Shown: one piece after another, positions 959-63,957 of the stretch
Numbering within the stretch: the stretch's first letter is position 1
Layout: the number at the start of each line of letters is the position of its first letter
Assembly: GCA_004335835.1 (NCBI GenBank)
Contig: RWJK01001686.1
Location: forward strand, 49,598-113,597
Reading direction: 5' to 3'
Length of the DNA: 64,000 nucleotides
From: Scenedesmus sp. ARA3
Lineage: Eukaryota; Chlorophyta; Chlorophyceae; Sphaeropleales; Scenedesmaceae
Notes under the pieces: generated by a model
Told to the model about the DNA's origin: nothing
Databases searched by the model: none
Seen by the model: the letters and a program-made list of their open reading frames with translations, nothing else
Program-made: the position numbers and the translations under genes

Positions 959-2369
959 ATGTCGCAGCAGCAACCCTACTCGGTGCAGCTGGACCCCGAC
1001 ACTGCACGCAAGCTAGCGAGCCATGGCGCCACCATACTGCTGCTGGACGTCCCACTTGGCATGCCAGTTGGCATAGATCAGCAGGTAGGCGCTCAGCAGG
1101 CCCATGCAAGCGAAGCTGTACACGGCAGCAGCTCTTGTACTGCTGCGTGTGCCGCCTGCAGCTTGTGCTGCTGCTGCTGCTTTTGGCATCTCCCAAAGGC
1201 AGGTCTCATATTCTATTATGCCCATGCATTGGCTTCATGACTGCTACAGCAGCACAGCACTGCGTGTCTCCGCCATGAACATCCAAAATATCCAGCAAAA
1301 CTCCGCCTTGCTGCTGCAGGTATTTCTCACAGGCCCAAAATTCAGAGGCATCAAGATGCTGCCGCCCGGAGTGCATTTCCTGTCTTACCAAGCAATTGCA
1401 AAAGACGGCACGCCAGCGCCGCCAGTGAGCAGCCTGCTGGCGCTGCAGCAGCAGCAGGTGCTGGTGCGGCGCTGGGACCCTGCAACAGAGGGCTTTGCAG
1501 CACTACCAGATGAAGATGAGGTGAGAGCTTCGTTGGGAGTTTATTAAGATACTAACACCAAGTAGGTGTGTCTTTGACTCTCAGAGAGGCTAGTTGCATG
1601 CACAGCCCTGTTGCAGCAGCACACAGCAAGAGTTGGGTTCCAGCAGCAGAGGGCTTTGCAGCACCGCCAGACAAAGATGAGGTGAGAGATGCATTGAAAT
1701 ATTGTTTTGGATAGTTCTGCCATATAATTGTGTCGTTGGGTCTGCAAGCGGGCAATTGCAAGAGCAGCCCTATTGCAGCAGCACACGGCACAACCAGCTG
1801 GCATGCATCATGTCCCAGAAAGCCTAGCACAATGCTGCTGCTGCTGCCCCTGGTGCCCCTGCTGCTATTTGCAGGAGGCGCGTTACGTGGCCGGGGTGCA
1901 GCGCTTTGACTTTGACCGTGAGCTGGCGCCGTATGACCTGAACCGCTACAGCCAATGGGTGACGCTGTCATGCCACATCAGCGAGGATGTGCTGCAGGAG
2001 CTGCTGCCGGTGAGTTTGTGGACCTCTACGCCTCATCAGCACTTGCATGAGCTGACATTTACAAACACAGCAGCAACAGCAGCAGCAGCAGCAGCAGCAG
2101 CACAAGATGGCGCTGGAGGAGCTGGCAGTAGCAGCGGTGCTTGCAGGAACAGCTGCTAGTGTGACACGCAGATCCTTGGGCAATGCAGCTGGCATGGCTC
2201 CACGGTTGCAAGGGCAGCATTTTGGCTGAAGCTGCTGGCTGCCATCTTGTGCAACTGTGCAGCAATGGAAGTGCCTAGTTATATTCGTGTGCACAGGCTT
2301 CACACTGTTGAGATGCGTGGCAGCTCTTTGACTGCGTAATCTTCACGACCACAGCAGTTGATATGTTTC

Positions 2370-2412
<43 letters not shown>

Positions 2413-5021
2413 AGCCGTGTGGTGAGCTGAGCATCATGGCAGAAGCTGCCGACCCCTGCCTGACAGCAGCAGCCAGCGAGGCAGAGAAGCGGCTGCAGCA
2501 GCAACTGCAGGTGGGATGCTGCTTCACAACCCTTGGCACCCTAAGCGAGTAACAAGCTGGCACCATGCTTTTTTGATACATTCTGGCCAGCACTTGGGCC
2601 CGTTGATGCATCTACGCACCACCCAGTAATGTTTGCAGTTCAAGTGTATGCCACGCCTGGCTGCTGGGGCCTGCTAATGCTGAGCTTTCTGCGTGTGCTG
2701 GCTGGTTTGAACTTGTGCTTGTTTGTCTTCTAGATCGACTGAGCAACATGTGCTGCTGCAGGAAGGCCGGGCATGGCTCGAAGCCAAGATGGCAGCCATG
2801 CAGGTAGACGCCCCAGAGGGCGAGCAGCAACAGCAGCAGCAGCAGCAGCAGCAGCAAGGGGATGACGCGGGACAGCAGCAGCAGCAGCAACCTGCCCCTA
2901 GGGGTGGCAGGTGAGTGACAGTCAAGAGTCTTGACCCGAGACAGCACACAGCATGTGCATGACGGTACCTGCATAGCAAACGTACTGCTCATGCGGCTGT
3001 TTTGAGATTTCGTTCGGCAGGCTGTTGCTGGTCACTAAGCTGCTGAAGCTGCGTTGCTGGTCCTATGACTCTGCAGATGCCGTTACAGCCAGCTGCCACG
3101 CCTAGAATGCTCATCGCTAGAATGCTCAAGCTGGGTTTGATGTCCTGTTACTCTCTGCACACTCTGCAGGTGCCGCTACAGCCAGCTACCGCGCCTAGTA
3201 AAGGTGCCAGGGCTGCCTGCTGCACAGCTGACAGCACTCAACATGGACAAGACGGCACTGCTGGAGCAAGTCATAGACAGATACAACAACAGCAGCAGCA
3301 GCAGCAGCAGCAGCAGGTCCACGCCAACAGGCCAGCAGCAGCAGCAGCAGAGTGGGCCACAAGGCATAGAGGTTTTAGGGGAGCTGCAGTTTGCGTTCAT
3401 CGCGTTTGTGTTTGGCCAGTCACTGGAAGGTGAGAGCGGCCCAGGCAGTGCCTGAAAGCCTGTACAGCAGTGCCTTTGGCGGTTGGCGCTTGAAGTTTTA
3501 ATACGGCCAAGGTTGTCAGTCAGTGGAGTATAACAGAGACGAACCAGCTGCTGCATGCACTGTTAGGCAGGCCCTGCCTGCTGCAGACCTCCTCATCTGG
3601 TGCCCTGCTGTCACCTGACAAGCTCCATCAAACATGTGCATTGTTATCTAAATTTGTCATAACAAATCTAATGACAACTTTCATACCAAACGTCGTCTTG
3701 AGTTGCACCAGCTGCTGACTGTGTTAGGCTTGGCACCAGTCTCCCAACCCCCTGTATTTGTATGTATCGCATTTGCTGTGCCAATGGCAAGCACCCTCGC
3801 ACGACCTTGCAACCATCACAACTGATGGTGCTGCCACCGTCATCATAACACACCAATCATGGCGCTCCGTGTAACAACATGCTGCCTGTGCGCGTGCAGG
3901 CTTCATGCAGTGGAAGCAGCTGCTGGTGCTGCTGCTGGGCTGCACCTCAGGCCCCCTGGAGCGCCACCCGCTGCTCTTCACAGCCTTCCTGCAAGCAATC
4001 ACTGCACAGCTGCAGTTTGGCCTAGGCCTGCAAACGCCTCGGCAACAAACACCATCATCATCATCGTCAGCAGCAGCAGGGGGTTTAAATGCTGCAGGAG
4101 TCGCAAGCCTTAGCCAGCAGCAGCAGCAGGATAGCACTTCGGCTGGCTTTGGGCTTGCTGCTGCTGGTGGGCTGGTTGATGAGCTGTTGCCAGACAGCTT
4201 CCTGAAGGCTGCCTTCAGGGGCTTCTTTGAGGTGCTGCAGGAGGCAGGGGCGGCAGCACCGGCACCCCTGCTGGCTGAGGTGAGTGCATTGCGGTGGATG
4301 CTGCATGTGCATTGCGCCTGAGCAGGTTTGATTTGGGCAGGGGAGGGGGAGTTGTACAGCTATTGGGTCTGGTGCTCTTGTCGAGTGGCAGAACTTAGAC
4401 AGCAGGACAGCAGGGCTTGTTGTTCGAAGTTTCCTCAAGGCTGCTTTCAGGGGGTTCTTTGAGGTGCTGCAGGAGGCAGGGGCAGCGGCGCCAGCAGCGC
4501 TGCTGGCTGAGGTGAGTGCTCTTCTTTGAGAGAGGGTAGTTGCATTGCTGTGGAGCCTGCGCGTGCATTGCAATGGCCGGCGTGCTTGGGCCGCAGGGGG
4601 GTTGGTTCCACTGCCTGTGGGACTGGTGCTGTAGCTGATTTGCAGGAGGTGGGTCAGTGGGAATATTGCAGCACGCAGGCTTCAAGTCGCGCAGCAGTGT
4701 CAGTGCGCACATGGCATGTTACTGGCTCTGCCACCCTGGCAGGCTGACCCACGTTTCGAACGGCGTACTGCCGACTGTGTCTGGCTGTAAGTCCCTGTCC
4801 GTTTGCTCTGCTTCTGTCATTTTTGATTCATGCAGGCCCGTGTCTTGGAGGGCGTGCTGGCATCAGGTCTGGGCTGGGACTTCCGGCTGCGGGAGCTGAA
4901 GCTTGGCGGTGATGATGATGAAGGCAGCGATGAGGATGGGCCTGTAGTGGTTGAGCTCAGTGAGCAGCAGCTGGCGGAGCTGGAGGGTCTTCAGTTGGGA
5001 GATATTCCAAGTTGGGTTTGA
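959..5021 (+). CDS. AAR2: AAR2-type splicing factor (U5 snRNP assembly)
   Basis: AAR2 proteins bind Prp8 and hold the U5 snRNP in an assembly-intermediate state in the cytoplasm and nucleus. Exons that keep frame: 959-1084, 1320-1520, 1875-2009, 2415-2510, 2744-2910, 3170-3429, 3900-4279, 4836-5021; they sum to 517 codons (516 aa). Visible family motifs are GATILLLDVPLG and GIDQQ near the N-terminus, then GPKFRGIKMLPPGVHFL, a central YSQLPRLVKVPG and LNMDKTALLEQV, then LGELQFAFIAF, and a C-terminal LGWDFRLREL followed by PVVVEL. The protein is longer than animal AAR2 (about 384 aa) because of Gln and Ser tracts around residues 200-280 and a Ser/Ala insert near residue 370. The exon 5 acceptor was chosen because it alone keeps phase. 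Introns contain copies of the ends of exons 2, 6 and 7. Identification is firm; individual splice sites are inferred. Confidence 0.9.
1645..1688 (+). repeat. Intronic copy of AAR2 exon 2 3' end with donor
   Basis: Resembles 1487-1527, including the GATGAG|GTGAGAG donor, with scattered substitutions. It lies downstream of the intact exon. Confidence 0.85.
2371..2412 (+). repeat. (TGC)n tract at AAR2 intron 3 acceptor
   Basis: Fourteen TGC triplets run straight into the CTGCAG acceptor of AAR2 exon 4, so the tract occupies the polypyrimidine position. Confidence 0.9.
3068..3104 (+). repeat. Intronic copy of AAR2 exon 6 5' end with acceptor
   Basis: Matches 3161-3199 (CTCTGCAG followed by the start of exon 6) with a few substitutions. 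It lies upstream of the intact exon. Confidence 0.8.
4430..4519 (+). repeat. Intronic copy of AAR2 exon 7 3' end with donor
   Basis: A copy of about 88 bp of 4199-4285, ending in the same GCTGAG|GTGAGTG donor. It is long and well conserved, so it could be used as an alternative exon only if an acceptor exists; none is obvious directly upstream. Confidence 0.9.
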
Positions 5022-5085: not shown

Positions 5086-5341
5086 CACCTGTAGTGCTAC
5101 TCGCAGGAACGCTTCGTGTACTGTGCATCACTCGCATCCTGTCTGGCTTAAGTACTAGCCAATGATCAGCAGCCGAGAAAGGCTGTTCTGTAGTGGTTGC
5201 CGGGAGAGTGGGCACTGTCGATCGCTTGAGTTTGCTTTGCTCCTGTCCGCAGCTGCCCAAACACCCACTACCTGGCGCTGTAAGTTTGTTTGATCACACT
5301 TTTTTGTTGACTTAATCAGCAGCAGCTTGTCACCGCTCGCA

Positions 5342-6302
5342 ATGGCACTCCCCATGGCACGCCAGCTCGCTGCTCTGGCTCTTGGCTCCAGCTCTAGCGC
5401 ACTGGTAGCCGCAGCATCACCAGCAGCAGCAACGTCTCTGGCCCGTGGCCTGCGCAGCTACAGCAGCGGGAGCTTCACTCGCAAGGATGTGATATACAAC
5501 CTGGGCAACACCTCAGATCCGGAGGCAGAGGCAGCCATCAAGGCCTTCCAGCGCGAGCAATTTGCAGCAGCAGCGAAGGGCCCCGCAGCCGCGCCTGCTG
5601 CGCAGCCAGATCAGCAGCTGGCAGCCAAGATAGAGCGCAAATACATGGCAGCCCAGATCGTGGAGTCCGGCATTCAGGGGGTTGCCGTGCCGCTCTCATA
5701 CGAAGCTGAGGGTGGTTTGACTGCGGTCAAGCGCTACCTGGCGCAGCTGCAGGACGTGGGGGCCCAGGCAGGCTTTGCAGCGCCAGCAGCAGAGCTGGAT
5801 GCAAAGCTGACAGAGGCCACAGCAGGAGCAGAGACAGTGAAGGAGCTGCTGGGCTCTCTGCGGCCCTACACCAGCCCTGACTATCATGCTGCTCTGAGTG
5901 AGGCGCTGGCAGCGGTTGAGGCGGAGACTGGCGGCGCAGTGATGCTGGATGGGGCATCTGCTGGCTACAAGACGTTTGCGGACAAGGTCAAGGTGAGCTG
6001 CATGCCTGGCGCAGCAGCTTGGGGGACTTTGTGTTTAGCTGGGAGTTGCTGGTTTCGAATGCAGCAGCGTACACAAGTTTGCTGACAAGGTCAAGGTGAG
6101 GCAGCAGCAACACATGCACACTAGGCGCAGCAGCTGGTAGAACTGTCCAAGATAGATGTGGCTGGGTCTTTTGGGCTGCTGGAGGTGCAGCACGCGCAGC
6201 TGTGGCAGCAGCATAGCTGTTGACGTTGGTGCCAGCAGCAGTGATAGACAACATGCAAGCAAGCTTTAAGCGTGAAGGACAGCAGGTGAGGGATACAGAC
6301 AT

Positions 6303-6333
<31 letters not shown>

Positions 6334-13914: not shown

Positions 13915-16900
13915 ATGCTGCTGCACCAGCACCGACATGTGGGCGTTTCGCACAGAAGTTGCTCGCAAGCGGCCTCCATACCACTTCACACAGCTCCTCG
14001 CAACTTTCATGGCGTCTCCAGGCCGCAAGTCGCAGCGAATGCCCCGTGTCTGGGCAACAACAGTAGCAGCCTGAGGGCAGCAGCACAGGAGTCAGGGGCT
14101 GCAGCAGCTCCCCAGTCTGCCTGTCCCTTTGCAGGAACAGCTTTGAATCCTTCTGCAGCTGCCACGTCAGCACCACCAACAGACCTCAGCGGCCCAGGAT
14201 GGAAGGTGCTGCCAAACGGCAATGTGGACAACCTGCCACTGGCGCAAGGGAATTTCTCATGGCTGCCTATCATTGGGGAGTATGGCGAGCTTGAAAGCAG
14301 CGGAGGTGGTGCCTTTATGCTGGAGCGCTTCAAGTGAGTGTGTTTTTGTCTCTGCCAGTGTTGCCAGTGTTTTGTCACTGGAGTCACGCAGCAGCTGCAG
14401 TTCTGGCAGGGCTGCACGCTGCACAGCGGTCAGAAGCCGGGGAGACGGCGCCTTTGGATTGGAGCGCTTTGAGTGAGCTGTCGTATTAGGCTGATGATTA
14501 TGCTGCCAGGAAGCTGGTTAAGTAATCAGCTGCCAGGCAGCAAGCTAGCTTCTAGGCCGCCGCGCAGCAGGCGATGGGAGTTGTGTGAGCAGCGGCACGA
14601 GTGACAGTTGCTATCAGAGCATCCGCTGCACACATTTGTGAACTGCTGCTTTGCGCCAGCTTGTGGCGGCGTGCCTCAATGCCTGGGCGCACAGCAGATG
14701 CTCAGTCACATTGATTGGACGTAAAAGCCCTTGCAGCCTGCACAACTGCTGCTCGGCTGCTGGGCTGCTTGCAGGAAGTTTGGTCCTGTTCTCACCTACC
14801 AGCTGGGCAGCTACGAGATGACCACAGCTCATGCCAACCTGCACTTTCGCCTGAAAGCGTGCTGCTGATATGCTTGCAGGAAGTTTGGTCCTGTTCTCAC
14901 CTTCAAGCTGGGCAGCTACGAGACGACCACAGCTCATGCCGACCTGCACTTCCGCCTGAAAGTGTGCTGCTGATATGCTTGCAGGAAGTTTGGGCCTGTG
15001 TTCACCTTCAAGCTGGGCAGCTATCAGACTGCATCAAGTCATGCAGCCTGCACCACCGTATCAAGTGTCTCTGACTGGCGCTTGATGTTGTGGTGCTGCG
15101 TGCTGCTGTGCTGCTTGCAGGAAGTTTGGGCCTGTGTTCACCTTCAAGCTGGGCAGCTATGAGATGACCACAGTGGTGGACTATGAGGCTGTGCGCAGCC
15201 TGCTGCAGCTAGGCGACAGCAAGGTGGGGCGCTGGCAGTAGTTGGGTCGCTGGTTTGGCTACTATTTGCAGGCACTGCACTTGCAGTAGCTTGTTGTTAA
15301 GCTGCTACTTGCGTGGGCTGCACTTGTACCAGGTCCCGGCGGATTTCCGGCGTGCTATCAGCAACGGCGGCAGCAGCAGCTGTTGGCATGAGCGGCATTC
15401 ACGCCAGCAGCAGCAGTTTGTGCACTGCCAGGAACACCGGCTCGCCTGCGTAAAGCCATTGCTGCCATGGCATCTCAATCGTGCAGGTCATGACAGGCTG
15501 GAACCCACCCGCGCTGTATGCCATGCTGGGAGAGGGCACCAAGCGCAACCTGGAGGACCCCGCTGCTCGCGCCATCAGCCGCAAGCTCATGGCACCAGGC
15601 TTTTCAAAAGAGGCGCTGCGCGGCTACTTGCGCAAGGTAACAACTTGTTGTATGTTTTGTATCATGTGATGTAACATAGAGTATTGATTGGAGGACCCCG
15701 CTGCTCGCGCCATCAGCCGCAAGCTCATGGCCCCTGAGTTTTCACAGGAGGCGCTGCGCGGCTACCTGCGCAAGGTGACAACTCATAACATGGTATGACA
15801 TTACTGTAGCTTGCCATGTAACCTATGATGTATGTAATGCAGTGTGTCACATAGAGTGACAGGTGAGGCTGCAGAGCTGCGACTCCTCGTGGTGATGAAT
15901 GACCTCGCACACTCCAACTTGCCCCTGCTGGCAAAGGACAGTGACTGGCTGTAACCGTGTTTGTGCTGCTGCCTCTGCTGCTGCTGCTGCTGCTGCTGCC
16001 AGATCGAGGCCATCTGTGTCAAGCAGCTGGAGGCCTGGGCTGCTGCTGGCAAGGCGGTGGACCTGCGCGCTGAGGGCAAGGTGACGCAGCGACTTCATTG
16101 GATGCCGAGCTGTTGTGTGCAGGGTGTGCCGTGTCAGCATGCAAGCTATGCTGCAGCCTGAGCATGACATGAGCAGAGCGAGGCCACGTGTCTTGCCTCT
16201 CCTTCAGTTGATGAAGCGTGTGCACTGCTGCCCTTGTGTTTTGGTGTCCTGCAGGCGCTGTCCTTTGAATTCAGCACGCAGCTGTTGGTGAGTGACAGGG
16301 GCAGCTGACTTACAGTGCTGGATCGGCAGGCTGCAGTGCAGCATGCAGCATCCAGCAGCTGCATGCTTGACAGCGGTAGCAGCTGCGGTATCAGCAGCAA
16401 CCGTGTGTAATTCTTTTGCACCCTATGCATGTGACAGCTGTTGCGCGGCATACAGCGCGCTGATAACGTCATGCGTAGCCTGCACCCTCGCACATGCAGC
16501 AGGGTCGTGCCATTGCTGACTAGTGCTCACCCTGAACCCTCGCCATCCATTTGAGCTTTAGGCAAGCTTTGGTCAAACTGTGGTCAACCCTGGTCAATGT
16601 TTTTCAGGTTGACTTTGACGTGCCTGATGAGGAGAAGGCGGCCATCAAGACCAAGCTGGACCTGCTGTTCCAGGGCATGTTTGCGCCACCCATCCAGCTG
16701 CCCGGGACCAGGTTCGCTGCTGTGCATCCCGCTTGCGTGCTTTGTTTGTTTTTTTGTACTTGGCTGAAAACCTATCATACTGCTGCATTAATGTAATGTA
16801 CAATGATTTAACGGTGCTGCTGCTGTTGCTGCTGCTGCTGCTCTGCTGCTCCTCAGGTTTTCCAAGGGCCTGGCAGCCAAGCCTGAGCTGCAGCAGGACC

Positions 16901-17603
16901 AACAATGCAGACGCTTGCTGCCGTACATGGCTTGTACAGTTGTTGTTGCTGCTGATGCTCTGCTCTGCCGCAGGTTCTCCAGGGACCTTGCAGCTAAGGC
17001 TGAGCTGCAGCAGGACATCAACATTGTGGGCTACTGCTGCTGTACATTGTCATCACTCTGCTGCTGCTGCTGCTGCTGCTTTGCTGCACCGCAGGTTCTC
17101 CAAGGGCCTGGCAGCCAGGCTGAGCTGCAACGGAAGCCGACAACGTAGACATTTGCTGCCTGGCATGGCTTTTACACCTGCTGCTGCTGCTACTGCTGTG
17201 GGTACCGCAGGTTCTCCAAGGGCCTTGCCGCCAAGGCTGAGCTGCAGCAGGACATCATGCGCATCATCAAGGCTGGCCAGGCGCGGCGCCAGCAGCAGCA
17301 GCAGGATGGCGAGCAGAGCAGCGTGTTCCAGTACATCCTGGAAGCGCGGCGGCAGACACAAAGCACGGTGCGGTGGTGTTGTATGATGAGTATGTGGTGT
17401 TGGTGTTGCTCGTCTGACGAGTTGGTTGCGAACGTTGGTTGGTTGCAGCCGCATGTAGTTGAAGTGTGTATCTATTTCCAGGGAGTGTGTGATTGTCGTT
17501 TGTGTCGCTGCTTCTGCCAGAGGTGCTTGCTGGCTCGTTTACTATGCAAGTCTGCATGCATCGGGCTCATTGAAGACGGAGGGTACTAACAGTACCCTGA
17601 TCG

Positions 17604-17695
<92 letters not shown>

Positions 17696-19212
17696 AAACT
17701 CACAGGACGGCACCCTGAGCGAGCAGCAGATGGCTGATGCCGGCATCGGGCTCATCATCGCAGGCAATGACACCAGCGGCCTGGGCATCAGTGCACTGCT
17801 GGCCATACTGCCGCTGTTCCCAGGCGTGATGGAGAAGCTGAGAAAGGAGCAGCAGGAGGTGGGTGGAAACCTTGATGATATTGGATGTGTGGGCTGTGTT
17901 TAACTTTACATGAGTGCAGGGTTGTGCTGCTGGCTGTACTGCCACTGTTGCCGGCGTGATGGGTTTGCAGAGTTTCTAGAAAGCGATGCTTTTTGCATAT
18001 GTGGGGTGTGAACAAGACACCAGCGGCCTGGGCATCAGCGCGCTGCTGGCCATACTGCCGCTGTTCCCCAGGGTGATGGATCGGCTGCGGCAGGAGCAGC
18101 AGGAGGTGGGTGGTTGCAGGTCGCTGCTTATGTAGAAGGTCTTATGATAGGCATGCATGCTGTGCTAGCTTTGCAAGGCTGCAGGCAGCTGCAGGAAGTT
18201 AGATACCTGGTGAACTTTTGCTGTACATGACTCCGCCAAAAAAAACGCTACAGGAGCCAGGGTAAAATGGGTATATTGGTTTGTAGGTACCTGACAACGC
18301 TGCTGCTGCTGCTGCTGCTGCTGCTGCAGGTGATCGCTAAGTATGGGCCGGACCTGAGCATCAACGTGCTCGACGCCATGCCCTACGCTGATGCCGTGGT
18401 GCGGGAGGTGCTGCGTGTGGCGCCTCCCTCAGCACAGGTGACTCGTCAGACCCTGGTCGACATGGAGGTGAGGGGGATAGCAGCTGTGTTCGGGGTTACT
18501 GTTCAGCAGTGATGCTGGTTCATCAATGCAGAGTAAGTTGACTGCCAGTAAGTGTGTACTGCCTGCTCCTCCTGTTCCCATCCACATATCAATTTTTAGA
18601 CACTGCTCCCGGCCCTGCTGTTGCCGTTGCTGCTGACACCTGCGCCCCGCCTGCCCAACAACAGCTCACTAGATCCTGCTGTGTGACAATGGCCTTGCCG
18701 GTGCTTCTGATTTTCCCTGCTTTCCCTCTCCTTTCCTGCACCCTCACCAGGTCCTGGGCAAGTTTGTGCCCAAGGGCTCCCGGCTGCTACTGTCCACCCT
18801 GATGGGCCAGGTCTTAACAGACCCAAAGCTAAACCCCAGCCTCGGCTCGGAGCAGCTGCAAACCCTAGACCGCACCTGGTATACCATCGACGCCAAAACC
18901 CTGAAGCAGGACTTCAAGCCGGAGCGCTGGCTGGTGCAGCAGCAGCAGCAGCAAGACGGCAGCAGCAGCAGCAGCAGCAACAGGCCGTCGCAGCTGCTTA
19001 CATTTTCAGTGGGTCCGCATGTGTGCCTGGGCCTCTCTTTGTTTATGCATGAGGCCAAGGTGCTGCTGGCGCTGCTGGCAAGGGGCTACAGCTTGGATGC
19101 ATTGAATGGCGAGGATGTGCTGCTGAGTGCGACAGTGGTCACGCAGCTCAAGAGCAACACGCAGGTCAGGTTTGGCAAGGTGCAGCAGGAGACGCCAGTG
19201 GCTGCGCGTTAG
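13915..19212 (+). CDS. Cytochrome P450, CYP85-clan (CYP120/CYP26-like)
   Basis: A heme-thiolate monooxygenase. Exons supported by frame: 13915-14333, 15121-15223, one starting at 15333 with unclear donor, 15487-15636, 16003-16080, 16255-16287, 16608-16711, 17211-17367, 17706-17858, 18330-18467 and 18751-19212; the protein is about 600 aa. All P450 hallmarks are visible: the N-terminal LPIIGEYGEL, KKFGPVFTFKLGS, the I-helix oxygen-binding AGNDTSG, the K-helix EVLR (ExxR), FKPERW, and the heme loop FSVGPHVCLG with the cysteine ligand. The FGPVFxxxLGS and PGFSKEALRGYL context is closest to CYP120/CYP26 of the CYP85 clan, so a hydrophobic isoprenoid or sterol-like substrate is possible, but this is inference. 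The Ser/Ala/Asn-rich N-terminus lacks a clear membrane anchor and may be a transit peptide. Introns carry arrays of exon-end copies. The start codon is the weakest part of the model. Confidence 0.85.
14448..14477 (+). repeat. Intronic copy of P450 exon 1 3' end with donor
   Basis: GGCGCCTTTGGATTGGAGCG then TGAGTGAGC mirrors the end of exon 1 at 14309-14338. Confidence 0.75.
14769..15055 (+). repeat. Three tandem copies of P450 exon 2 5' end with acceptors
   Basis: Copies begin near 14769, 14871 and 14977, each reading TTGCAG|GAAGTTTGG and continuing for about 50-60 bases of exon sequence before diverging. The period is about 105 bp. The intact fourth unit is exon 2 at 15121, the only one continuing to a donor in the P450 frame. 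Confidence 0.93.
15689..15780 (+). repeat. Intronic copy of P450 exon 4 3' end with donor
   Basis: A near-identical repeat of 15550-15640, including GCGCAAG|GT. Confidence 0.9.
16855..17140 (+). repeat. Three copies of P450 exon 8 5' end with acceptors
   Basis: Copies at about 16855, 16973 and 17093 read CAG|GTTYTCCARGGNCCT and continue through GAGCTGCA before diverging. The intact exon is at 17211. CTG-rich tracts separate the copies. Confidence 0.92.
17604..17695 (+). repeat. (TGC)n tract before P450 exon 9 acceptor
   Basis: About 30 uninterrupted TGC triplets end ten bases before the acceptor of exon 9 (17706). Confidence 0.95.
18013..18110 (+). repeat. Intronic copy of P450 exon 9 3' end with donor
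   Basis: Repeats 17769-17864, including the encoded DTSGLGISALLAILPLFP and the CAGGAG|GTGGGTGG junction. A second, out-of-place coding copy of part of the I-helix therefore exists in the intron. Confidence 0.92.
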
Positions 19213-22530: not shown

Positions 22531-22624
<94 letters not shown>

Positions 22625-28499: not shown

Positions 28500-28701
28500 A
28501 TACAGTCATGTTTGTTCGGGATCTGCGGCGGTTGTTTTTGATGGTAGAAGTCGTTCTCAGGAGCCAGGAAGAAGGCAAGCACGGACGCAATCTGTGGCAG
28601 GCAGTTTGTTCGGGATCTGCGGCGGTTGTTTTTGATGGTAGAAGTCGTTCTCAGGAGCCAGGAAGAAGGCAAGCACGGACGCAATCTGTGGCAGGCAGGC
28701 A

Positions 28702-35871: not shown

Positions 35872-35930
<59 letters not shown>

Positions 35931-35980
35931 NNNNNNNNNNNNNNNNNNNNNNNNNNNNNNNNNNNNNNNNNNNNNNNNNN

Positions 35981-36040
<60 letters not shown>

Positions 36041-37705: not shown

Positions 37706-38817
37706 TCAGTGCCTGCCGTTGCCATCTCCCGCCCCTGTGGGCAGCACCTGTGGCCTTGCCTGCACCACCACCAGCTTACCCTCTCTCCACACCCCTTCAA
37801 TGTCCTGAGCAACACCTCCAAAGGCATCCTCAACTGCCTGGCCCACATCCACGATGCTGTCGATCAGGCGTGAGCGCAGGCCACCATCCCACAGAAGGGC
37901 TTCTTCTGCTGCTTCGATAGTCACCTCGTTGAGGGGCACCACAGGCACACTACAGCCGCAGCAGCAGTGGCAGCAGCAGCAGCAGCAGCAGCAGCACAGA
38001 TTTCAGCAGAGTACGTGACACAGCAACAGCAGAAAGTGCATGCATTCTCCTTGAGCCTGCGCGTTGTCATTCCTGCCTTGCTCCAGCGCTCAAGCATGCT
38101 GCATTTGTACAGAGCATGACAAGCAGGCATCTCCAACACCACTTGCCAGCCGAGCCGACCCAAATTCCCACCCTCACAACACACTATACAACTATTCTTT
38201 TTGACAACTACCCACGCACCTGTCATACAGCCCTGCTCCTGCAAAGGCCTCCAAATCCTCGCCGTTGGTGTCGCTGCGCGCAATGAGGGTGCCGCCCTGG
38301 GGCGTATACAGCGCCACGCGCTTGCTGGGCAGCGACAGCAGCTGCGGCTCAGGGGCGCCGGGTGAATCGGAGAAGCTCAGAGCACGGCCAGGGTAGTTGC
38401 CCACCTGCAGCAGCACCAGCAGCAGCAACAGCAGAGTCAGCGACAGCAGCTGCGGCTCAGGGGCCCCGGGTGAGTCAGATAAGCTTAGCGCGTGGCCGGG
38501 GTGGTTGCCCACCTGCAGCAGCAGCAGCAGCAGCAGCGCGACAGTGTTGACTGCAACAATGTTCGCTTTCACCTGAGCCCCCACTTTTGACATACAGAGC
38601 TTCATACACATCGCCCGGCTTGCCTCTCATTCAGCACTACCCTTACAGCGAGTAACAGAAGCAGCAGAGTCTGACTTACAGCTAGCAGCAGCAGCAGCAG
38701 CGCCACTCACCAGCACCTCTCCCAGGCCTGCCACCAGCTCCCCAAACATGTCGCCGTGGCGCCCCGTCAGCGGGTTGGCGGTGTGCAGCACAAACGCATA
38801 CTGGCCGTCAACCACCT

Positions 38818-44800: not shown

Positions 44801-47800
44801 CCTGCAGTTGAACAGTCAAAGTGCTTGCACTCACATCATGTGTTGCATGATGCAGCAGCATATGAAATCACTTTGTCTCACAGGCCCGTCGACAGCTGTG
44901 CATGCATGATTTGAACTGAAAATAACATGTCACTCACCGCAATGCCTGCGTTCTCCAGCACCATGCCGACCATGTCCACCAGGTTGTCCCTGCTCAGCGT
45001 GGAGCGGTCAGTGCGCTCAATCATTGTCCTGCAAGCAGAGAGCAATGAACAAAGCAATGTAACGCTCCTTCTTGAAACCTGGAACACCCACACACAAGCC
45101 ACAAGCCCCAGAGAGCCACATGGCTAGAGCATTACTGGGCAATGAAAAGACAATGCCAGACAGCCCCTCTATGCACACGACGCGGTTGTCCAGTGCAATG
45201 TCCAGCAGAAGGTGATCAATAACATGTTGTGTTTTCAAACATCATGCGTGCTGCAGTCCGCAGCACTCGCCGCACCTGAAGTAGTTTGTTCAGTGCGATG
45301 TCCAGCAGCAGCACGTCCCTCCAGGTGCACATGCTGTCATCAAATCGCTCAGAAAATACAAAATGCAGTGCACAAAGCAGCGCAGGCCGCACCTGAAGTA
45401 GTTGTCCAGCGCGATGTCCAGCAGCAGCACGTCCCTGCTGCCGCCGGGGGCGCGCCACACGCCAGCCAGGCGCTTGCGCACCTCCACGATCTTTCCCGGC
45501 ACCCACCACTCGTTCCTGCAAGCAACAGCAGGGTTTGTTTGTTAGTTGCTGTGTGTTTGGTTGTTGTTGAAGCAGCATTATGGCCGCGGCACCTGCACAA
45601 TCTTGCCAGGCACCCACCACTCGTTCCTGCAAGCACCATCATGTGTTTGTTTGTATGTTTGTTTGTTTAGGCGTATTTGGTCAACACTGTGGCATACCCA
45701 TACAGTTCAGCCAGCTGTGAACTAACACGTGTTACACACGTAGCCACAGATAACAGGTGCAGGCGTAGAGCTCAAAAATCGGCGCTAAAGTTTGCTTAAA
45801 GTTTGCTCAAGCAACCTGGCCAGAACCCCAGCACCACAAGGAGATAATGACCAGCTACGCAGGTGCAGTAACCGTCAAGTTTGTAGTGTGTTTGAACAAC
45901 TGGTGCCGCACCTGGTGTGCAGCATGTCGAACAGCATCCAGGTGGTGTCGCCGTCCAGGTGGCCCTTGGCCATATCACAACAAAACAGACGCTTGATATA
46001 TGCCAAACCATAGTTCAACACCCTCCCCATCCCTCCAATTGGCAAGCATATAGCTCACCACCCTTTCCAAACAGGCGCACATGCTGTCAGCAGCAGCCTC
46101 TTATTCCTGCAGTTGCCGCACCTGTTCTGCAGCATGTCAAAGAGCATCCAGGTGGTGTCGCCGTCCAGGTGGCCCTTGGCCATCTCCGCTGCCGTGTCCA
46201 TGTCAGCGCCGGAGTGGCACGTCTTGAGCGTCCACAGGTAGCCCTTGAACGCGTTGATCATGTGCGGCAGGTGCTGCGGCCACGCTGCAGATACAAGTTG
46301 ACAAACATGCACAAAGCAGCGGTCAGAAAGTCTGAGATAAGCAACAACATGGCTGTCTTCAACAAGCTTCCACAGGCTGTTCGAGGCCCGGCAAAATATT
46401 ATAGGTATACTCCATCTACGTTCAAATATTGTCTGCAAGGTCAAGCATGATGTGCGAGCCCCCTCACCCTTGATGGGGATGTTCATGCCCTCCATGCGCT
46501 CCTTGGTGATCTTGCCGTGGTCCCACAGCACGAAAACAGCAAGTCAACAAGCATAGCAGCCACACCATATCCCCAAAATGTAAGCAACCTCACCCTGGAT
46601 GGGGATGTTCATGCCCTCCAGAAGCTCCTTGGTGATCTTGCCGTGGTCCCGCATCGTCACAGTCACAACACCGAGTACCAACATTTCAGCGCCAGGCCAT
46701 ATCCCAAACAAAAAAGCAAACAGCATGCCCCCTCACCCTTGATGGGGATGTTCATGCCCTCCAGGCGCTCCTTGGTGATCTTGCCGTGGTCCCACAGCAC
46801 GCGCCAGTAGTCGTCGTGGTTGCCGCTGTGCAGGTAGGCCAGGTAGGCCTCGCAGATGGACACGTCCTCAGGGGTGGTGTTCTGGTGCAGCTTCTGGTGC
46901 CACTGCTCCAGGAAGGGCTCGTCAATGCCCTACAATAAAAACAAGATAGCTTTTTGTGAATGGAATGTAACAGGTGCAGCAAGGCCAGGTAGGCCTCGCA
47001 GATGGACACATCCTCAGGGGTGGTGTTCTGGTGCAGCTTCTGGTGCCACTGCTCCAGGAACGGCTCGTCGATGCCCTGCAATGACATACAATTGACATTG
47101 TTTGAATGGTAACTAACAGTCGCAGGTAGGCCAGGCAGGGCTCGTCGATGCCCTGCAGGAGACAGAAGCAACAAGTTTAATTCAACATGGCGAAGAAGTT
47201 ACCATACCGCAGCAACGCGGACAAGTGTCTTTCAACCCGAATCCCCAAGGGACCGACAGGAAGCTGTTGAATGGTTGGCGCGCCGATACTTTGAGCACAT
47301 GCTGCAGCACCGCCGCCATGTCACCAAAACATTTCATAACACAATTCAAACGCCACTCACCGGCCTGTGGCCCTCCTTGATGCCGTACTCACGCATGATA
47401 TGCAGGATGCCCATGCGGATGTCATCGCTGCACGGACGGCCAGCATGTTACTAACACATGTTACAACATGTTTTAACAACTGCGCTCACCGGCCTGTGGC
47501 CCTCCTTGATGCCGTACTCGCGCATGATGTGCAGGATGCCCATGCGGATGTCATCACCGTTGCCGCCACCACGAGGCAGGCCTGCCAGGGCCAGCCGGGC
47601 ATACAGCCGCACCCAGGGGTCGGGGTGGGCGCGCGCCTGCAAATGAAAGACATGAGACCAATGGGTTATGGTCAAGTTTTGCATATGCACAGCAGCTGCA
47701 TTTGCAGGACACCTCAAAGGCCACACAAACTCCTGCAGCTTACACCCTCCCCAAAACTCGTGCACCGCATGTTGCCCTCAACCCACCCACCTTGTCTGTC

Positions 47801-48488
47801 ATGCGCTGGCTGGTGACCTTCTGCATCCACGCGATGTCCTTGCTCTGGTAGTTGCCCTAAACCCTCGCATTCATCCAAACCCTCAAGCTGCTGCCCTCAA
47901 CCCTGCAAATGCGCGGCCCTAAACCGCCGCACCTTGTCTGTCATGCGCTCGCTGCTGACCTTCTGCATCCACGCGATGTCCTTGCTCTGGTAGTTGCCAT
48001 AAACCCTCGCATTCACCCAAACCCTGAAGCTGCTGCCCTAAACCCTACACACGTGCTGCCCTAAAAACGCCGCACCTTGTCTGTCATGCGCTCGCTGGTG
48101 ACCTTCTGCATCCACGCGATGTCCTTGCTCTGGTAGTTGCTGCGGCGCGCCCAGGTCAGGATCTTGCTGCTGCTCATGCGCAGCCAGGTGAAGATGAAGC
48201 CCATGCCGTCCGGGCCTGCAGCATGTACAAATCAGCGTGCTCTGGTGTTCAGATCAGGTGTATCGGATGATGATGGAAGCATGCGCAACCAGGTGAACAG
48301 CAGTCCCATGCCGTCCGAGCCTGCGGCAAAAACAAAGTATTCCCAAAATGTACCTGCTGCTGCGAAGCCGTCCAGCACGTCGTTGACCAGCACCAGCCTG
48401 TCCTTCAGGCTCCAGTGGCTGGCCTCGCCCTCACAGTCCAACACGCGGCTGATGAGCTTGTCGATGCCCGGGGGCTTCAGCTGTTGGT

Positions 48489-50888: not shown

Positions 50889-53406
50889 CTACTGCAAGTA
50901 CTTGTTTAACACGGCAGTAGAGTCCATCATCTGCACCTGCAACAGCGAGCTACCGTGGCTGCTGTCAGTGCTGCCCTTTGTACTGCTTGTACTTCTGGCA
51001 GCACTGCTGCTGATCAACCACCCCTCAGATGCTGCCAATGGAACAGCATGAACGCCAAGTGCTCGATCTACATCGATGCCGGGTCCTCTGCTGCTGCTGC
51101 TGCTGCTGGTGCTGCTGCTGCTGCTGTCACTCAAGTCCAGCTCTTCACAATCACTACTGCTGCTGCAGCTGCTGCTGCTGCTGCTGCTGCTGCTGCGATC
51201 AACGGCACCTTTGTTGCTGCTCAACAGCGGCAGCTGCTCCTCTAGCTGACCTGCGTGCCATCCCTGCTGCTGCTGCTGCTGCTGCTGCTGCGCCGAAACA
51301 ATTGGCTGCTGCACGCATAGCGCAGCAAAATGCTCCTGTGAAGGCGCACACAGCAGCACGCTGTACTGGTGCGGGTCAGGCGCACGTTGTGCAACCTCAA
51401 GACAGCCCAACAACTGCTGCTGCTGCTGCTGCTGCTGGTCCACAGCTTGCAGCAGCTGTCCAATGCCTCCCTCTTCACGTGCTGGGAATCCTGCAGATGG
51501 CAGGGTATGCATCCACACAGAGTCAGGAATGCACGCAGGGTGAGGTGCTGATTGCATCACACACATTTTGTTCTGAATCAAGTAGCTAGCGGCGTAGCCT
51601 GAGCTGTGCAATAGAACATACGGTATGCGTGTACGACATGCCCTCACACCTGCTAGCCCAGGAGCCTAGGCGACGTGCTGATGCCGCTGCAATTGGTCTT
51701 CACCCCGTCACTGCCGCCTTTGCCCTTCACTACCATTGCAGCTGTGGCTGCCTCTGTTCGCAGACAGGCTACCCCGGTACATGCCCTCAGATTCACTATG
51801 TCAAAACATTGTCACTCACGAATGCTGAAGCCCTTGAGGCTCGGTGGAGCGGAGTTGCCGCTGCCCTTGGCCTTGACCACATAACCCATAAGCACGCTGT
51901 GCCTCGCCCCTTCACACCACTGCAACCCCATCCTTACCCGTGCAGCACGTGCGCTGCTGACTTGCAGCAGTAAGCTGAAGCTCCTGCGGCCATTCCATGT
52001 GCTGAGAGGCTCTCCAACAGCCACCCTGATGCACAATAGCACAGGCAGCACGTGCGTATTATGTTTACTTATACTGCCGCCTTGCTGCACAAGAAAAAAG
52101 TTGCATTTGTTACTTACGGATGCTGAAGCCCTTGAGCCCTGGTGGTGCAGAGATGCCGCTGCCCTTGGCCTTGACCACAGCCTCCTTGAGCGTCCACAGC
52201 GCCATGAACAGCGCGGCCCGGGACGACTCATCACCCAGCGCTGCAAACAGCAAGCAGCGGGACAGTACTGCCCTTGAGCAGCCTTGGAGTCGGCGCATGA
52301 AGTACACGACCGCTGCTACTGCTGCTGCTGGCACCCAACACAGCAGGAATGGACCTTTACTTGGTGTGATAACGTGACGCACTTGCGTACATCATGTGCA
52401 TTGGTTGCTCTTCATCACTCGTTGAATGCACGGGCCTTTAACCTGCGCGGCCTCCTCAGCAGAGAAGCGTCGGCGTGCAAGGCACATGAAGCCGCTGCTG
52501 GCGCCAGCCATTTGCACACAGCCTCGTGCACTCGTTGTCGTAACATGTGCTGACCTTCAAGCTGCGCAACCTCTTCCAAAGAAAAGCGCCTTTTAGCCAG
52601 GCGCATGAAGCCGCTGCTGGCTCCGGCGCTGCGCTGCCGCAGCTCCACGTCCAGGCCCACAGGCAGGCCCAGGCTCACCGCACAACCTGTTATTTAACGT
52701 GTCACAAATGACAAATAACATGATGAGCTATGTGACAGGCTGTTTCAAGCCAGAGAGGCTGAGCAACAGTTGAATTTGAGGTGCTGTATCTTGCACTGTT
52801 GGAAGTGGCTGGCGTACACAGGCGGGGTCTTTAAAAAGGTTCAGCTGCAGCCCCCAAAAAACAAAAAAAACATAGTTACATAATACCAGTGACATGGTGA
52901 ATGCTGTTACTCACCCAGCAGCGCTTGTGTGTGTGCCAGGTTGAACTGCAGCTGGGCTGCCAAGTCAGCGGCGGCAGCGCCTGCAGACTGCGGCAGCAGG
53001 TGCGGCTTGCCATGCAGGCCACGCTCAAACACCAGCTGCAGCACAGCGGAGGAGCAAAGTAAAGGTGCCAACACATTTAGTTTGGTGTTGTAAGGATGTG
53101 TGATTGGAAGCACACATACAAAACATGCACTTCAGTTAACAGCCCTGAGGATGGCAGGCTTCATATGTCTAAACATGTTATTGAAACCAACTCCCAGAAG
53201 AATTGTTCACAGAAGTATGCAGCTGTGCTGGTGTTGAGTTGCTGTGCTGGTGCAAGCAATCAGTGCATTCAACCAGGCTTGCCCCCAAGCGGCGCTGCGC
53301 TTGCCGCTGCTGTCACATGTGCTGGGCAAACTGGAAATTGGACAACAGCACTGACCACAGCCACCTGACTTCATCATGTGCAGTAGTCCTGCAGCTGCTG
53401 CTGTTC

Positions 53407-54513: not shown

Positions 54514-55893
54514 ATGGCAGCACTGCCACTGGCATGCGCCTTCATTATCTTACAACTGCTGGATGCAGCAGTGCCCCCACATGCAGCTGCTGCTTCCATG
54601 CCGACAGAGCTGCAGCAGCAGCAACACCCCGCAGCGAAGCAGCTGATGCACCGCCACATGCAGCTGCTGCAGCTGCCTTACGCACCCTACTTAACAACAC
54701 CAGACTCAGCAGCACCGAACACAGCAGCATCACTAGCAGCAGCAGCAGCAGTAGACCCACTCAGCAGCACCAGTGGCCCGGGTGGGCTCCCTGCAGTGTA
54801 TGGCCAGCTGCCGCCGCTGCCAAGCAGCTTCCCAGACTTGCCAAAGCAGCAGCAGCCGCTGCTGTATCAAGAAGTGCTGCCCAATGGGCTGCGGGTGACG
54901 CTGCTGGAAGATAGGGAGGTGCCACTGATCAGGGGCAGCCTGCTCATGCCTGGCGGCCAGGTGAGCACGAGTTTTTTGGAGGTTTGAGTGATGAACGTTG
55001 CTGTACTCTTCTACTCGCTTTGGGTTGTTGCTTCAGTCATGCCTTCGGAGCATGTTCAAGGTGCAGACGCTGCCAAGCAGCTTACCTGAGCTGCCAAAGC
55101 AGCAGCAGCCGGTGTTATACCAAGAGGTGCTGCCGAATGGGCTCCGGGTGACGCTGCTGGAAGATAGGGAAGTGCCGCTGATCAGGGGCAGCCTGCTCAT
55201 GCCTGGCGGCCAGGTGAGCACGAGTTACAGAAGTGTGTTGGATCAATGCTTTGATGTGTGGTATCCGCATGGTAGTAAGTTCAAATCACTTTACAGATGG
55301 CGTATGTTGCCACATTGCCGTCGTTGCTGCTACTGCTGCTGCCGCTGCCACTAGGTGTCCAGCCCTCCAGAGCATGTCGGTCTTGCCAGCATCGCAGCAG
55401 CTGTGCAGCGCGCCGGCGGCAGCAGAGCGCACCCAGCCGACCAGATGGACGAGCGGTGAGCAGCAGCGGCAGCAGCAGCAGCAGCACTCTAGCAGGCATG
55501 CGCCGCTGTACAGCAAATGGCGCTTGCAGCCTGTTAGATGCAAGTGCGTTCCTTGCTACCTTGTGCAACCAACAGGAGCCTAGTAGCACACAACGTCAAG
55601 AAATTGGTGCATTCTGTGCTGCTGCAGGCTGGAGGACCTTGCTGCATCCCTCGAGGCCTCTGCAGGGCAGCAGTCAACCACCTTTGACTTCCAGTGCATG
55701 ACAGGTCAGCAGCGCTGCTTGCCACCAGTACAGGGCAGCAGCTCAGCTGACCACGTTTGACTGGTGTTCAACCATGTGGCTGAGTCCCTGCCTGGCTGCC
55801 GAATCAAACCGTCTGTTTCGTTGTCCTGATGCTTTTCTCATGCACCCCTGAAACTGCTGTTGTGAGAACCACATCCTTTACATCACTGTCGAT

Positions 55894-57155: not shown

Positions 57156-57815
57156 CGTCCCAGGTGGTGTACCTTGTGGACAGGCCAGATGCCAAGCAGG
57201 TGGGTTCCACCGTTTTCGTGTTGGGCCTCTGCCCTTGACTGCAGCTGCACCAAGTGGCTCTTCACCATCTTTGTTGCTGGCCGCCAGCCATTGCACAATG
57301 GTAACTGCTTGCTGCATGTTGCGCTTCCTCCTGAGCAGCATAACAGCTCCTGCACTGTCCTGCACGCCAGTGTGCTGGCCGGCTGTTGGCTCCTCTCTGG
57401 CGTAGCGCCAACACATTACACCGCACCCCTACCTTCAAGCGTTGTGCCCTGTTGCATTCTGTCATATTCTGCAGGCCAGTGCATCCACTGGGGAGCCAGG
57501 CATCAGCCTGTCTGACCCTGACTGTTACGCGCTGGATGTGCTGAACCCCGTCATTTGCTGAAACTGTGATATGCTGGACCCTCCTGTCAATCTTGCAGGC
57601 CAGTGTGTACACTGGGGAGCCCAGCATCAGCCTGTCTGACCCCGACTGCTATGCGCTGGATGTGCTGGCTTCCACGCTGAATGGCTTTGGAGGCACGCTC
57701 TTTGACGAGCTGAGAACCAGGCAGGGCCTGGTGTACAGCGTGGCTGGTGAGTGCTGCTGCTGCTGCTGCGCATGCGGCAGGGCCTTGCGTACAGCGTGGC
57801 TGGTGAGTGCTGTGC

Positions 57816-57846
<31 letters not shown>

Positions 57847-58086
57847 TGCGCACGCAGCACGGCCTAGCGTACAGCGTGGCTGGTACGCTGGTGTGGCAGC
57901 AAGCTGTGCTCACGCCGGGAGTGAATACGCCGCATTCCTTGCATTGATCCCAACATCAGTTGAACTTGCTGCTGCTGTGCATGCTGGGATACATGCCCCG
58001 TATTAAAACGCATGCCTGCTGTAAAGCAGAGTGCCACGTGGCAGAGGCACTTGCCATCCACTTGCCTGTTGCATTTACTGGTAGAA

Positions 58087-62600: not shown

Positions 62601-62798
62601 GCCAGCTGAGCAGCGGTACCATGGCCAGCTGTCCCGAGCAGTATTCCTGTTTGACTACAGGGACAGCGATCTGTTTCACACCCTTGAGGACACTGTGCGG
62701 CAGCACAATGCAATTGTGCTGGGCCTGGCACCGCCGCCACCACCGACGCCTGAGGAGATTGCAGCAGCAGAGGCAGCTGCTGCGGCCGCAGCGGCGGA

Positions 62799-62831
<33 letters not shown>

Positions 62832-63957
62832 GGCAGCATCGCCCCTGCAGTCGCGGCTGGCTTCTGCTGCTGCTAGAGGGGCGGCTGGCAAGTCCAGTGC
62901 GGGAGCTGCAGCTGCTGTGGTAGCAGCGCCGGGTGCAAAAGGCCCTGTAGCTCTTGCTGCTGCCAATCGAGCAGCCAAGGCAGCAGGCGCAACGGCTAGC
63001 ACAGCTGGTAGCGTTGTTGCTGTCAGTGTTGCTGGCAGTGGCCTGACCGTGGACCCCACTGCTTCAAAGTCAGCAGCTGCGGCCGCGGCAGCAAAAGCAG
63101 CAGCAGGTAGTAGCAGCGCGGGCGGCATAGATGCAGGCACACCCCGCTCAATCCTCAAGCGCAGCTCGTCAGTAGGTACAGCCGTTGCTGGGGCAGCCCT
63201 CACCAGCAGCTGCGCCGGCAGCAAGAGCGGCGGCACCCCTCGTAAAGACGGTCAACAGCAGCAGCACACCAGGTTTGACCGCAGCATCAGCGGGGATTTG
63301 ACCAACTCGGATGATGATGGCAGCAGCAGTGATGAGGGCTCAGATGAGGAGCTGAGTGCGGCTGAGCAGCGGCTGCAAGGAGTGCTGCGGCGCTACGAGC
63401 ATGTGCTGCTGGACAACCGGCTGCATCAGGTGGGCGGGCTTGCAGCTTTAGCCTGTATGGTCATAGCTCAGCAACAAGCAGGCTGCTACGGCCCCGCAGT
63501 TATTAACGATTAAGTGACAACTATCAGCAGCCAATTAGGCGAAGGTTGCGGGTGCTTGACGTCCTGATGCTTTGCTGGCATAATGCAAAAAGCTTGGAAA
63601 CCCACGAGGCCAGTTTACTTTTTTGCATGGCCTCCTTCTGTGCCCGCCTGCAGAGCCTGTCCACACGCCAGCTGGATACCCAGCAGGCTGGCGACCCGAG
63701 CTTAGACCTGCTGACTGGCTGCCAGCTGGCTGCAACAGTACCAGATCCCATGATAGCACTGCGCTTGTTATTACGCATGCCCTCACTGCCTGCCTGCAGA
63801 GCCTGTCCACGTGCCAGCTGGACGCCCAGCAGGCTGCTTACCCTAGCTTAGACCTGCTGACTGGCTTCCAGCTGGCTGACGGGGCGCTGCGGCTGGTGGT
63901 GCTGGAAGGGCCGGCTGAGGGGATAGGCATGGCACAAACCATCGCAGGCATTGCCAG
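59657..63957 (+). CDS. CFAP92/KIAA1257-like ciliary protein (partial, runs off window)
   Basis: Exons: 59657-59733, 59853-60104, 60307-60904, 61096-61422, 61624-63429, 63800-63957, with a GTGAGT donor after the last, so the gene continues. Similarity to animal CFAP92 (DUF4550 region) is judged from memory: LNPVVLCAYKVKNLPDAP, then PIVFLGCDVGG, TAPLQLQIHDR, FGLVSLSLLDLARG, YMQAEAVLKG, RAVFLFDYRDSDLFHTLEDT, and a C-terminal LLTGFQLADG then LVVLEG. These appear in the family order. Long Ala-, Gln- and Ser-rich insertions inflate the protein to over 1000 aa. CFAP92 proteins are associated with motile cilia. A copy of the last exon's start lies at 63650-63742. Confidence 0.65.
63650..63742 (+). 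repeat. Acceptor-side copy of the last CFAP92-like exon
   Basis: CTGCAGAGCCTGTCCACACG and following bases match 63794-63885, upstream of the intact exon, before diverging. Confidence 0.93.

Follow-up and report, generated by a model that had tools for sequence, protein, structure and literature searches.

Why should the introns of a green alga hold diverged copies of the ends of their own neighbouring exons? The question is raised by a 64-kb stretch of the genome of Scenedesmus sp. ARA3 (C1287:49598-113597, hereafter the window), in which an initial annotation had noted about 60 partial exon duplicates, each straddling a splice junction, inside the introns of ten genes (AAR2, ASA4, CASP, P450, SDR, an unnamed gene at 32.9-36.7 kb, GWD, PPTase, M16 and a CFAP92-like gene). 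The analysis covered the window and 20 other pieces of this genome, each 10 kb long, which makes 264 kb out of an assembly of 87.27 Mb in 1567 contigs. Exon-end copies in introns are real, abundant and patchily distributed. We regard them, with a probability of roughly 0.6, as what is left of short tandem duplications that recurred in a lineage whose alleles had diverged, and they have no demonstrated function.

Copies of exon ends in adjoining introns

The evidence rests on 190 local direct repeat pairs (67 in the window), spaced by less than 800 bp and scoring at least 45 bits. One predicted exon-intron boundary is spanned by 114 of them, against 36.4 ± 5.2 expected from 300 random relocations of the same pairs within the same sequences (maximum 56); boundary pairs that belong to one family are not independent. 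The excess over random positions implied by the initial annotation is thus borne out by self-comparison. Fewer pairs than expected lie within introns only (40 versus 62.9), between genes (11 versus 20.3) or inside an exon without touching its edge (15 versus 28.2), only 10 have both members in the same exon (36.5 expected), and none of the 190 comprises a whole exon (5.8 expected). The copy sits in the intron adjoining the copied end in 107 of the 114 boundary pairs, 3′ ends being copied downstream in 55 and 5′ ends upstream in 52, with 7 arranged otherwise. The reported polarity of the copies therefore holds, and it follows from geometry wherever the copy lies in the adjacent intron.

A typical copy has an exon part of 53 bp, an intron-side extension of 15 bp and a spacing of 185 bp (medians). 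The alignments comprise the exon end, the GT or AG and, in most cases, intron sequence of between a few and about 30 bp, after which the sequences diverge; in 69 of the 114 boundary pairs similarity stops no more than 25 bp from the splice site, and in 45 it reaches farther. The claim that each copy keeps its GT or AG is true of 98 of the 106 copies examined, the dinucleotide being lost in 6 and unaligned in 2, while among alignments that end at the boundary it is retained in just 2 of 8.

Overall, 80 of 607 predicted boundaries have a copy, and about one in five predicted introns holds a copy of a neighbouring exon end with its splice site. In the window, 50 boundary pairs are distributed over 36 of 172 boundaries, close to the 60 or so copies counted by hand. 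Within gene segments whose limits we set ourselves, boundaries with a copy number 3 of 19 in AAR2, 1 of 4 in ASA4, 4 of 20 in P450, 4 of 13 in SDR, 4 of 8 in the 32.9-36.7 kb gene, 13 of 43 in GWD, 1 of 10 in PPTase, 5 of 20 in M16 and 1 of 7 in the CFAP92-like gene. CASP (0 of 18) and two other gene segments (0 of 5 each) have none. Nor do 8 of the 20 pieces (L022-L026, L031, L032 and L036), despite their predicted multi-exon genes, and the spread across window and pieces is uneven (chi-square 58.0, 20 degrees of freedom, p about 1e-5). The assertion that nearly every multi-exon gene is affected thus suits the window, where nine of the ten named genes have a boundary copy, but not the sequences beyond it.

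These counts depend on a sample and on exon models that should be specified. The pieces were picked by position on contigs already named in searches, i.e., they form a non-random sample; one (L037) is from the window's own contig and one (L038) carries a GWD paralog. Exon models were produced by a home-made two-strand gene finder based on a hidden Markov model (HMM) and trained on the window and pieces themselves, and predicted exons wholly within a repeat were counted as copies. The gene finder retrieves the genes named by the initial annotation. Pfam matches were obtained for AAR2 (N-terminal domain PF20981, in the upstream part of the gene), CASP, SDR (PF13561), PPTase (ACPS domain PF01648) and pieces of P450 and M16; there was none for the ASA4 piece tried or for two CFAP92-like pieces, and the gene names used here are those of the initial annotation. 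Protein matches put the window in Tetradesmus obliquus (Scenedesmaceae) or close to it: P0001 of T. obliquus for GWD (98%), P0121 and P0122 for P450 (98-99%) and P0136 of T. obliquus for M16 (94% over 82% of the query). The exons of GWD, P450 and M16 were checked by tblastn against the homologous proteins P0001, P0121, P0136 and P0137; for M16, P0136 begins downstream of the first exon, which P0137 includes.

Comparison of the window with itself (simple repeats masked, at least 40 bits) gave 74 direct pairs less than 4 kb apart, 73 of them within 600 bp, and 6 farther apart, while three block-shuffled controls of 60 kb gave no pair at 50 bits. At 50 bits, 63 direct pairs closer than 600 bp are present in the window cut into 10-kb pieces. 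Those of the 20 other pieces are direct and close, as befits intragenic tandem duplication, with 111 direct pairs closer than 600 bp, 11 farther apart (seven of them from one piece that seems to contain two related genes side by side) and a single inverted pair. The close pairs of at least 50 bits occur in 13 of the 20 pieces, 7 of which hold ten or more. Tandem Repeats Finder (TRF) independently gives arrays of period 94-238 at many of the repeat-pair sites.

Probable tandem origin and divergence of the copies

Traces of the original duplicated unit persist in many pairs. Intron is shared for more than 25 bp in 45 of the 114 boundary pairs. Among the 68 remaining anchored pairs, the spacer is similar to the flanking intron (z above 3) in 17, and 19 beat all 60 shuffles where about 1 would be expected. 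Since 45 pairs share intron and 17 share spacer, tandem duplication is traceable for at least 62 of the 114. The whole unit between copy starts is still homologous in 32 of the 190 pairs, 21 of which lie at boundaries (7.3 expected). Introns with a boundary copy have a median length of 452 bp (61 introns) versus 278 bp without (241 introns), and the difference of 174 bp is about one repeat unit, but longer introns also have room for more copies. According to PMC5966456, T. obliquus UTEX393 has a mean intron of 462 bp, the longest among the five algae tabulated.

The real exons appear to have been left intact, as the initial annotation had proposed. In GWD, P450 and M16, each protein stretch leads by tblastn to an intact exon, the copies being extra and mostly weaker hits to the same residues, and the relatives' proteins hold each exon end once. 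The shortage of pairs within one exon and of whole-exon pairs agrees with this. As far as P0001, P0121 and P0136 extend over the genes, they contain no copies. The contigs of P0121 and P0122 are at most 2013 and 3126 nt long and encode the whole protein, which suggests that their sources are probably transcripts.

Two relatives bear more directly on the fate of copies, both compared at the level of protein sequence only. In the contig-derived M16 relative P0229, a single exon end runs straight into the intron that follows the copy in the window: 14 of 20 read-through residues fit the intron after the copy, while 3 or 4 of 8 fit the sequence after the intact exon. This junction suggests that the M16 copy may be variable among relatives, or may have been lost in P0229. 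In P0125, a P450 predicted on a 6.2-Mb contig of T. obliquus, an exon end is extended by 16 read-through residues, behind which comes a diverged 24-residue copy. By its tag, P0127 is a predicted protein of another T. obliquus assembly; it lacks the copy and is identical to P0125 at 433 of 445 aligned residues, the locus tags marking two assemblies. The copy in P0125 may be a gene-model error. No orthologue of the P0125 exon was found in the present genome, where matches to the later part of the protein reach the end of contig C1542. In a diagonal scan of 255 homologous proteins, 36 passed the threshold; most of the 25 listed are of low complexity, and among them P0125 shows the exon-end pattern. 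P0042, which by its tag is not from the Scenedesmaceae, has a near-perfect 44-residue repeat, so that such repeats are not limited to this family.

The differences between copies and exons are distributed as in protein-coding sequence. Counted over 78 boundaries with a single pair each, and without the repeated-exon gene at 33.8-35.2 kb, they number 85, 69 and 234 at codon positions 1, 2 and 3, a third-position share of 0.603 (bootstrap 0.548-0.658) versus 0.435 ± 0.030 in simulations of a neutral copy beside a silently evolving exon. GWD, P450 and M16 alone give 0.60 (29 non-independent pairs). Third positions are not simply more mutable, base composition predicting 0.121, 0.132 and 0.115 for positions 1 to 3, and the codon-position differences contradict the idea that a simple tandem copy has undergone neutral decay and nothing else. 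By our own arithmetic, the bias equals either a protein-level rate in the copy of about half the neutral one or silent divergence between alleles of about 8%, topped by neutral decay of 4%. Gap openings per 100 bp amount to 0.47 in exon parts versus 4.2 in aligned intron, the introns being rich in slippery repeats, and new stops to 2 per 2033 codons. Among the 80 copies whose exon part reaches 40 bp or more, 57 are intact and 20 frameshifted, 2 show gaps that keep the frame and 1 contains a stop. Residues polarised by eye against relatives are mostly derived in the copy; the exception is a P450 copy (18016..18113) with Q where the present exon has K, Q being found in 7 of 9 other aligned relatives. 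Splice-site scores remain high, with means for donors of 5.3 in copies, 6.3 in intact exons and -1.7 at other intronic GT, and for acceptors of 6.4, 7.7 and -1.0 (background), respectively. Such near-intact scores indicate that duplicate sites have not been purged.

The excluded array at 33898-35140 repeats exon segments (AKSSGFVASGDASPSPEAAGQ..., GGPGLGAMGDIVDAVGGAFSGDGKRVERAVEDLTHEGE) that differ almost exclusively at silent sites, one pair having 21 differences at third positions versus 1 elsewhere; it may be a set of true tandem exons, all translated.

Weighing the explanations

The explanation we favour starts from frequent short-range direct tandem duplication, with units of about 100-400 bp, in the past and probably still ongoing; the spacing and orientation of the pairs and the intron shared by at least 62 of the 114 boundary pairs show that it took place. 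Selection would remove those duplications that interrupt coding sequence or double an entire exon, in line with the observed depletion of these disruptive classes. A duplication spanning a splice site would instead leave the exon complete beside a truncated copy, which splicing would discard along with the intron, as the relatives' proteins suggest for three genes, and each event would add about one unit to intron length. The intron halves would then decay through substitutions and frequent indels. Boundary-spanning duplications would remain recognisable longest because one exon end stays under selection, and this longer visibility of the exon half would account for part of the boundary excess. 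The third-position excess would best be accounted for if the copy and the present exon came from different, already diverged alleles, so that protein-filtered differences were there early and neutral decay was added later. In outline, this mechanism is ordinary, i.e., short tandem duplication plus selection. The protein-like divergence of the copies is unusual, and so, as judged from this genome alone, may be their abundance.

Several observations weigh against this explanation. The boundary excess persists among non-disruptive classes: once exon-disrupting classes are dropped, boundary pairs still number 114 versus 50 expected, full-unit tandems 21 versus 11.7 and pairs of at least 94% identity 14 versus 5.1, so that selection and landing place do not explain the whole of it. 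No clear similarity between spacer and flank (z of 3 or less) is found in 51 of the 68 anchored pairs, and some pairs with a decayed spacer have an exon part that is 95-100% identical, which plain neutral decay would not lead one to expect; spacers that have lost nearly all similarity occur beside exon parts that are 90-100% identical. Copies compared with one another are likewise rich in third-position differences (0.22 versus 0.07; 29 pairs, the repeated-exon gene included), and the third-position share falls only slightly from the least to the most diverged pairs (0.71, 0.62, 0.63 and 0.56). A search of the assembly for a haplotype contig matching 44500-50000 found none, nor was there one among the sampled loci. 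The initial proposal of boundary-spanning tandem duplication is therefore upheld for the at least 62 pairs with a traceable origin, whereas the third-position excess and the decayed spacers do not fit its plain neutral version.

Could the copies instead be in use, or have recently been used, as in-frame alternative exons of some transcripts, with purifying selection on their protein sequence? The high third-position share, the rarity of gaps and stops and the donors nearly as strong as intact ones all speak for such use, as does P0125 with its read-through copy. In addition, the third-position share is 0.61 where the HMM takes an exon at the copy (35 pairs) versus 0.55 elsewhere (74). However, to replace the exon's own end, a second splice site within the exon would be required, and the HMM predicts an overlapping exon at just 35 of 109 copies. 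As a frameshift or stop disrupts 21 of the 80 longer copies and no copy is present in P0121 and P0122 on their transcript-sized contigs, alternative exon use is unlikely. The initial annotation had suggested that the copies could feed decoy splicing or alternative exons; their donors are strong, but of the proteins compared one, P0125, reads through such a copy. It is likewise doubtful that a good part of the copies is constrained at the protein level, be it by in-frame use now and then or by continual exchange with the intact exon, in which case introns would store spare exon ends. Gene conversion between exon and copy could keep the exon parts alike, omit the diverged intron parts and so account for the sharp edges: the segment at 46458-46532 is 98.7% identical to its GWD exon even though a nearer copy is more diverged, and at L021:1577-1618 a stretch of 42 bp is identical, with differences starting 3 bp into the intron. 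Yet conversion erases silent and non-silent differences alike, which by our own arithmetic gives a ratio of third to other positions of at most about 1.75, versus about 3 observed. Conversion may operate alongside recurrent tandem duplication; as the explanation itself it is decidedly improbable.

The differences between copies and exons are allele-like, and introns often diverge directly past the splice site, as would be seen if the alga were a heterozygous diploid and pieces of its second haplotype had been set in series within the contig. A relative is diploid with separated haplotypes, according to PMC7955037, and pairs of at least 96% identity are few (17 of 190). Against such misassembly, the flanking 15 bp at the two ends of 69 anchored copies match by only 0.32 and 0.29 on average, so that the joins offer no overlap of the kind an assembler relies on. 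Families of 3-4 differing copies occur, identity across the pairs spans 69 to 100%, the window has one N gap for its 50 boundary pairs, and a T. obliquus protein on a 6.2-Mb contig has such a copy. P0001, P0121 and P0136 are moreover nearly full-length in the window, exon loss thus being rarer than the doubling of ends, and we consider misassembly rather unlikely. A mechanism tied to the splice junction that inserts exon ends and a few intron bases into the adjacent intron would match the 69 of 114 pairs, some young ones included, that lose similarity no more than 25 bp from the splice site, and the boundary excess that persists at 94% identity and above. It is scarcely plausible, given that at least 62 of the 114 pairs share intron well past the splice site or in the spacer, and that the edge lies where the splice consensus stops, as decayed flanks would lead one to expect.

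Two further candidates were rejected. CTG/CAG tracts do not appear to be the cause, with 43 of the 114 pairs near a tract versus 56 ± 5 at random boundaries, i.e., no enrichment; and introner-like families are absent from the 264 kb.

Known systems and individual copies

Tandem exon duplication with mutually exclusive splicing is a known system, and it likewise duplicates exon sequence into a neighbouring intron with protein-like divergence. The copies described here differ in being partial, none of the 190 pairs supplying an entire second exon flanked by both of its splice sites. Internal (intragenic) gene duplication, which PMC4974935 cites from Gao and Lynch 2009, resembles the present case in its short direct duplications within genes, some with exon and intron sequence. 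Here, in contrast, truncated exon ends predominate (at 80 of 607 predicted boundaries), and they lie within an old intron without forming a new one. PMC4974935 also describes a tandem duplication beside a splice site in the potato RdRp gene, which also has an 83-bp intronic duplication without structural effect. Unlike that case, the segment here spans an existing junction, both copies have the same splice site, and no new intron is seen in M16, the sole gene where this could be judged (from protein P0229). Green algae are named among the lineages with introners in PMC9860276; introners also change introns in bulk, but no repeat family is common to the introns studied here, only 6 pairs in the window lie more than 4 kb apart, and distant pairs are nearly absent from the pieces. 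Among the matches listed in a literature search, judged by titles and the openings of abstracts, the exon-end copy pattern was not described.

If the pattern were found to hold across strains, short tandem duplication would rank as a main cause of the lengthening of introns in this lineage, with a dated record of it left beside the exons. It would also give a view of splicing under strong duplicate splice sites, of the onset or failure of intron gain by duplication, and of whether pieces of exon within introns ever turn into exons. Gene finders applied to Scenedesmaceae may splice in such copies, as the HMM did here, P0125 possibly being an instance in a database.

The individual copies in the window are collected in the table below.

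Exon-end copies and related features of the window (coordinates in window positions)
Feature	Position	Strand	Remarks
AAR2, intact exon 3′ end, donor GTGAGTGC	4196..4279	+	predicted exon 3900-4279
AAR2, 3′-end copy with donor	4428..4519	+	232 bp downstream of intact end
P450, three 5′-end copies upstream of exon 15121-15223	14756..15036	+	AG near 14775, 14880, 14985; TRF period 105
P450, intact exon, 5′ end copied three times upstream	15121..15223	+	tblastn P0121, 97%
P450, 3′-end copy with donor, downstream of exon 15487-15636	15689..15783	+	92% identity
P450, three 5′-end copies upstream of exon 17211-17367	16843..17130	+	one frameshifted
P450, 3′-end copy with donor of exon 17706-17858	18016..18113	+	copy encodes PRVMDRLRQEQQE, exon PGVMEKLRKEQQE
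SDR, two identical 94-bp tandem units with copied exon end	28510..28697	-	TRF 2.0 copies, 100%; youngest case
GWD, 5′-end copy upstream of exon 38222-38404	38438..38514	-	copy GNHPGHALSL, exon GNYPGRALSF
GWD, 3′-end copy downstream of exon 46122-46284	45904..45976	-	93%
GWD, second 3′-end copy of exon 46737-46929	46458..46532	-	98.7% identical; similarity ends 10 bp into intron
GWD, first 3′-end copy of exon 46737-46929	46588..46663	-	diverged more than second copy
GWD, intact exon, both ends copied	46737..46929	-	tblastn P0001, 98%
GWD, 5′-end copy upstream of exon 46737-46929	46974..47075	-	TRF period 146
GWD, 3′-end copy downstream of exon 47490-47636	47361..47426	-	peptide identical; aligned intron 43/60 bases identical
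GWD, tandem array, period 142	47774..48140	-	3′ end of exon 48076-48215 and two downstream copies, intron included; TRF
PPTase, 3′-end copy downstream of exon 52118-52240	51809..51881	-	88%
M16, 3′-end copy of exon 54598-54960	55059..55226	+	13 identical intron bases
M16, 5′-end copy upstream of exon 57599-57746	57459..57543	+	PF05193 in gene
M16, short 3′-end copies downstream of exon 57599-57746	57770..57884 (57776-57807, 57850-57884)	+	TRF and alignment
CFAP92-like, 5′-end copy upstream of exon 63800-63961	63641..63732	+	89%

In the AAR2 copy, 9 of the 10 exon differences fall at third codon positions, and the spacer can be aligned at 66% over 146 columns with the intron that lies behind the copy. 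The M16 spacer behind exon 54598-54960 is also still alignable, from the splice site on, over 115 columns at 60%. The peptide of GWD exon 38222-38404 agrees with those of relatives, and the HMM fused this exon and its copy into one. A diverged second GWD gene with exon-end copies of its own lies in L038 (C1481:60001-70000); its intron positions differ from those of the window gene at the exon compared. A predicted SDR intron contains a perfect tandem pair with a 29-bp unit (30385-30442). In L025 (C1548:250001-260000), two related genes stand in tandem at about 1-3300 and 5200-8700, with blocks that are 72-91% identical and mostly predicted exons. Perfect CTG/CAG tracts of up to 30 units are very numerous in exons and introns alike (17604-17695, 22533-22623 and others). 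The sole N gap of the window (50 N, 35931-35980) lies between two perfect (TGC)19.7 arrays at 35872-36039 and is probably one longer triplet array left unclosed in the assembly.

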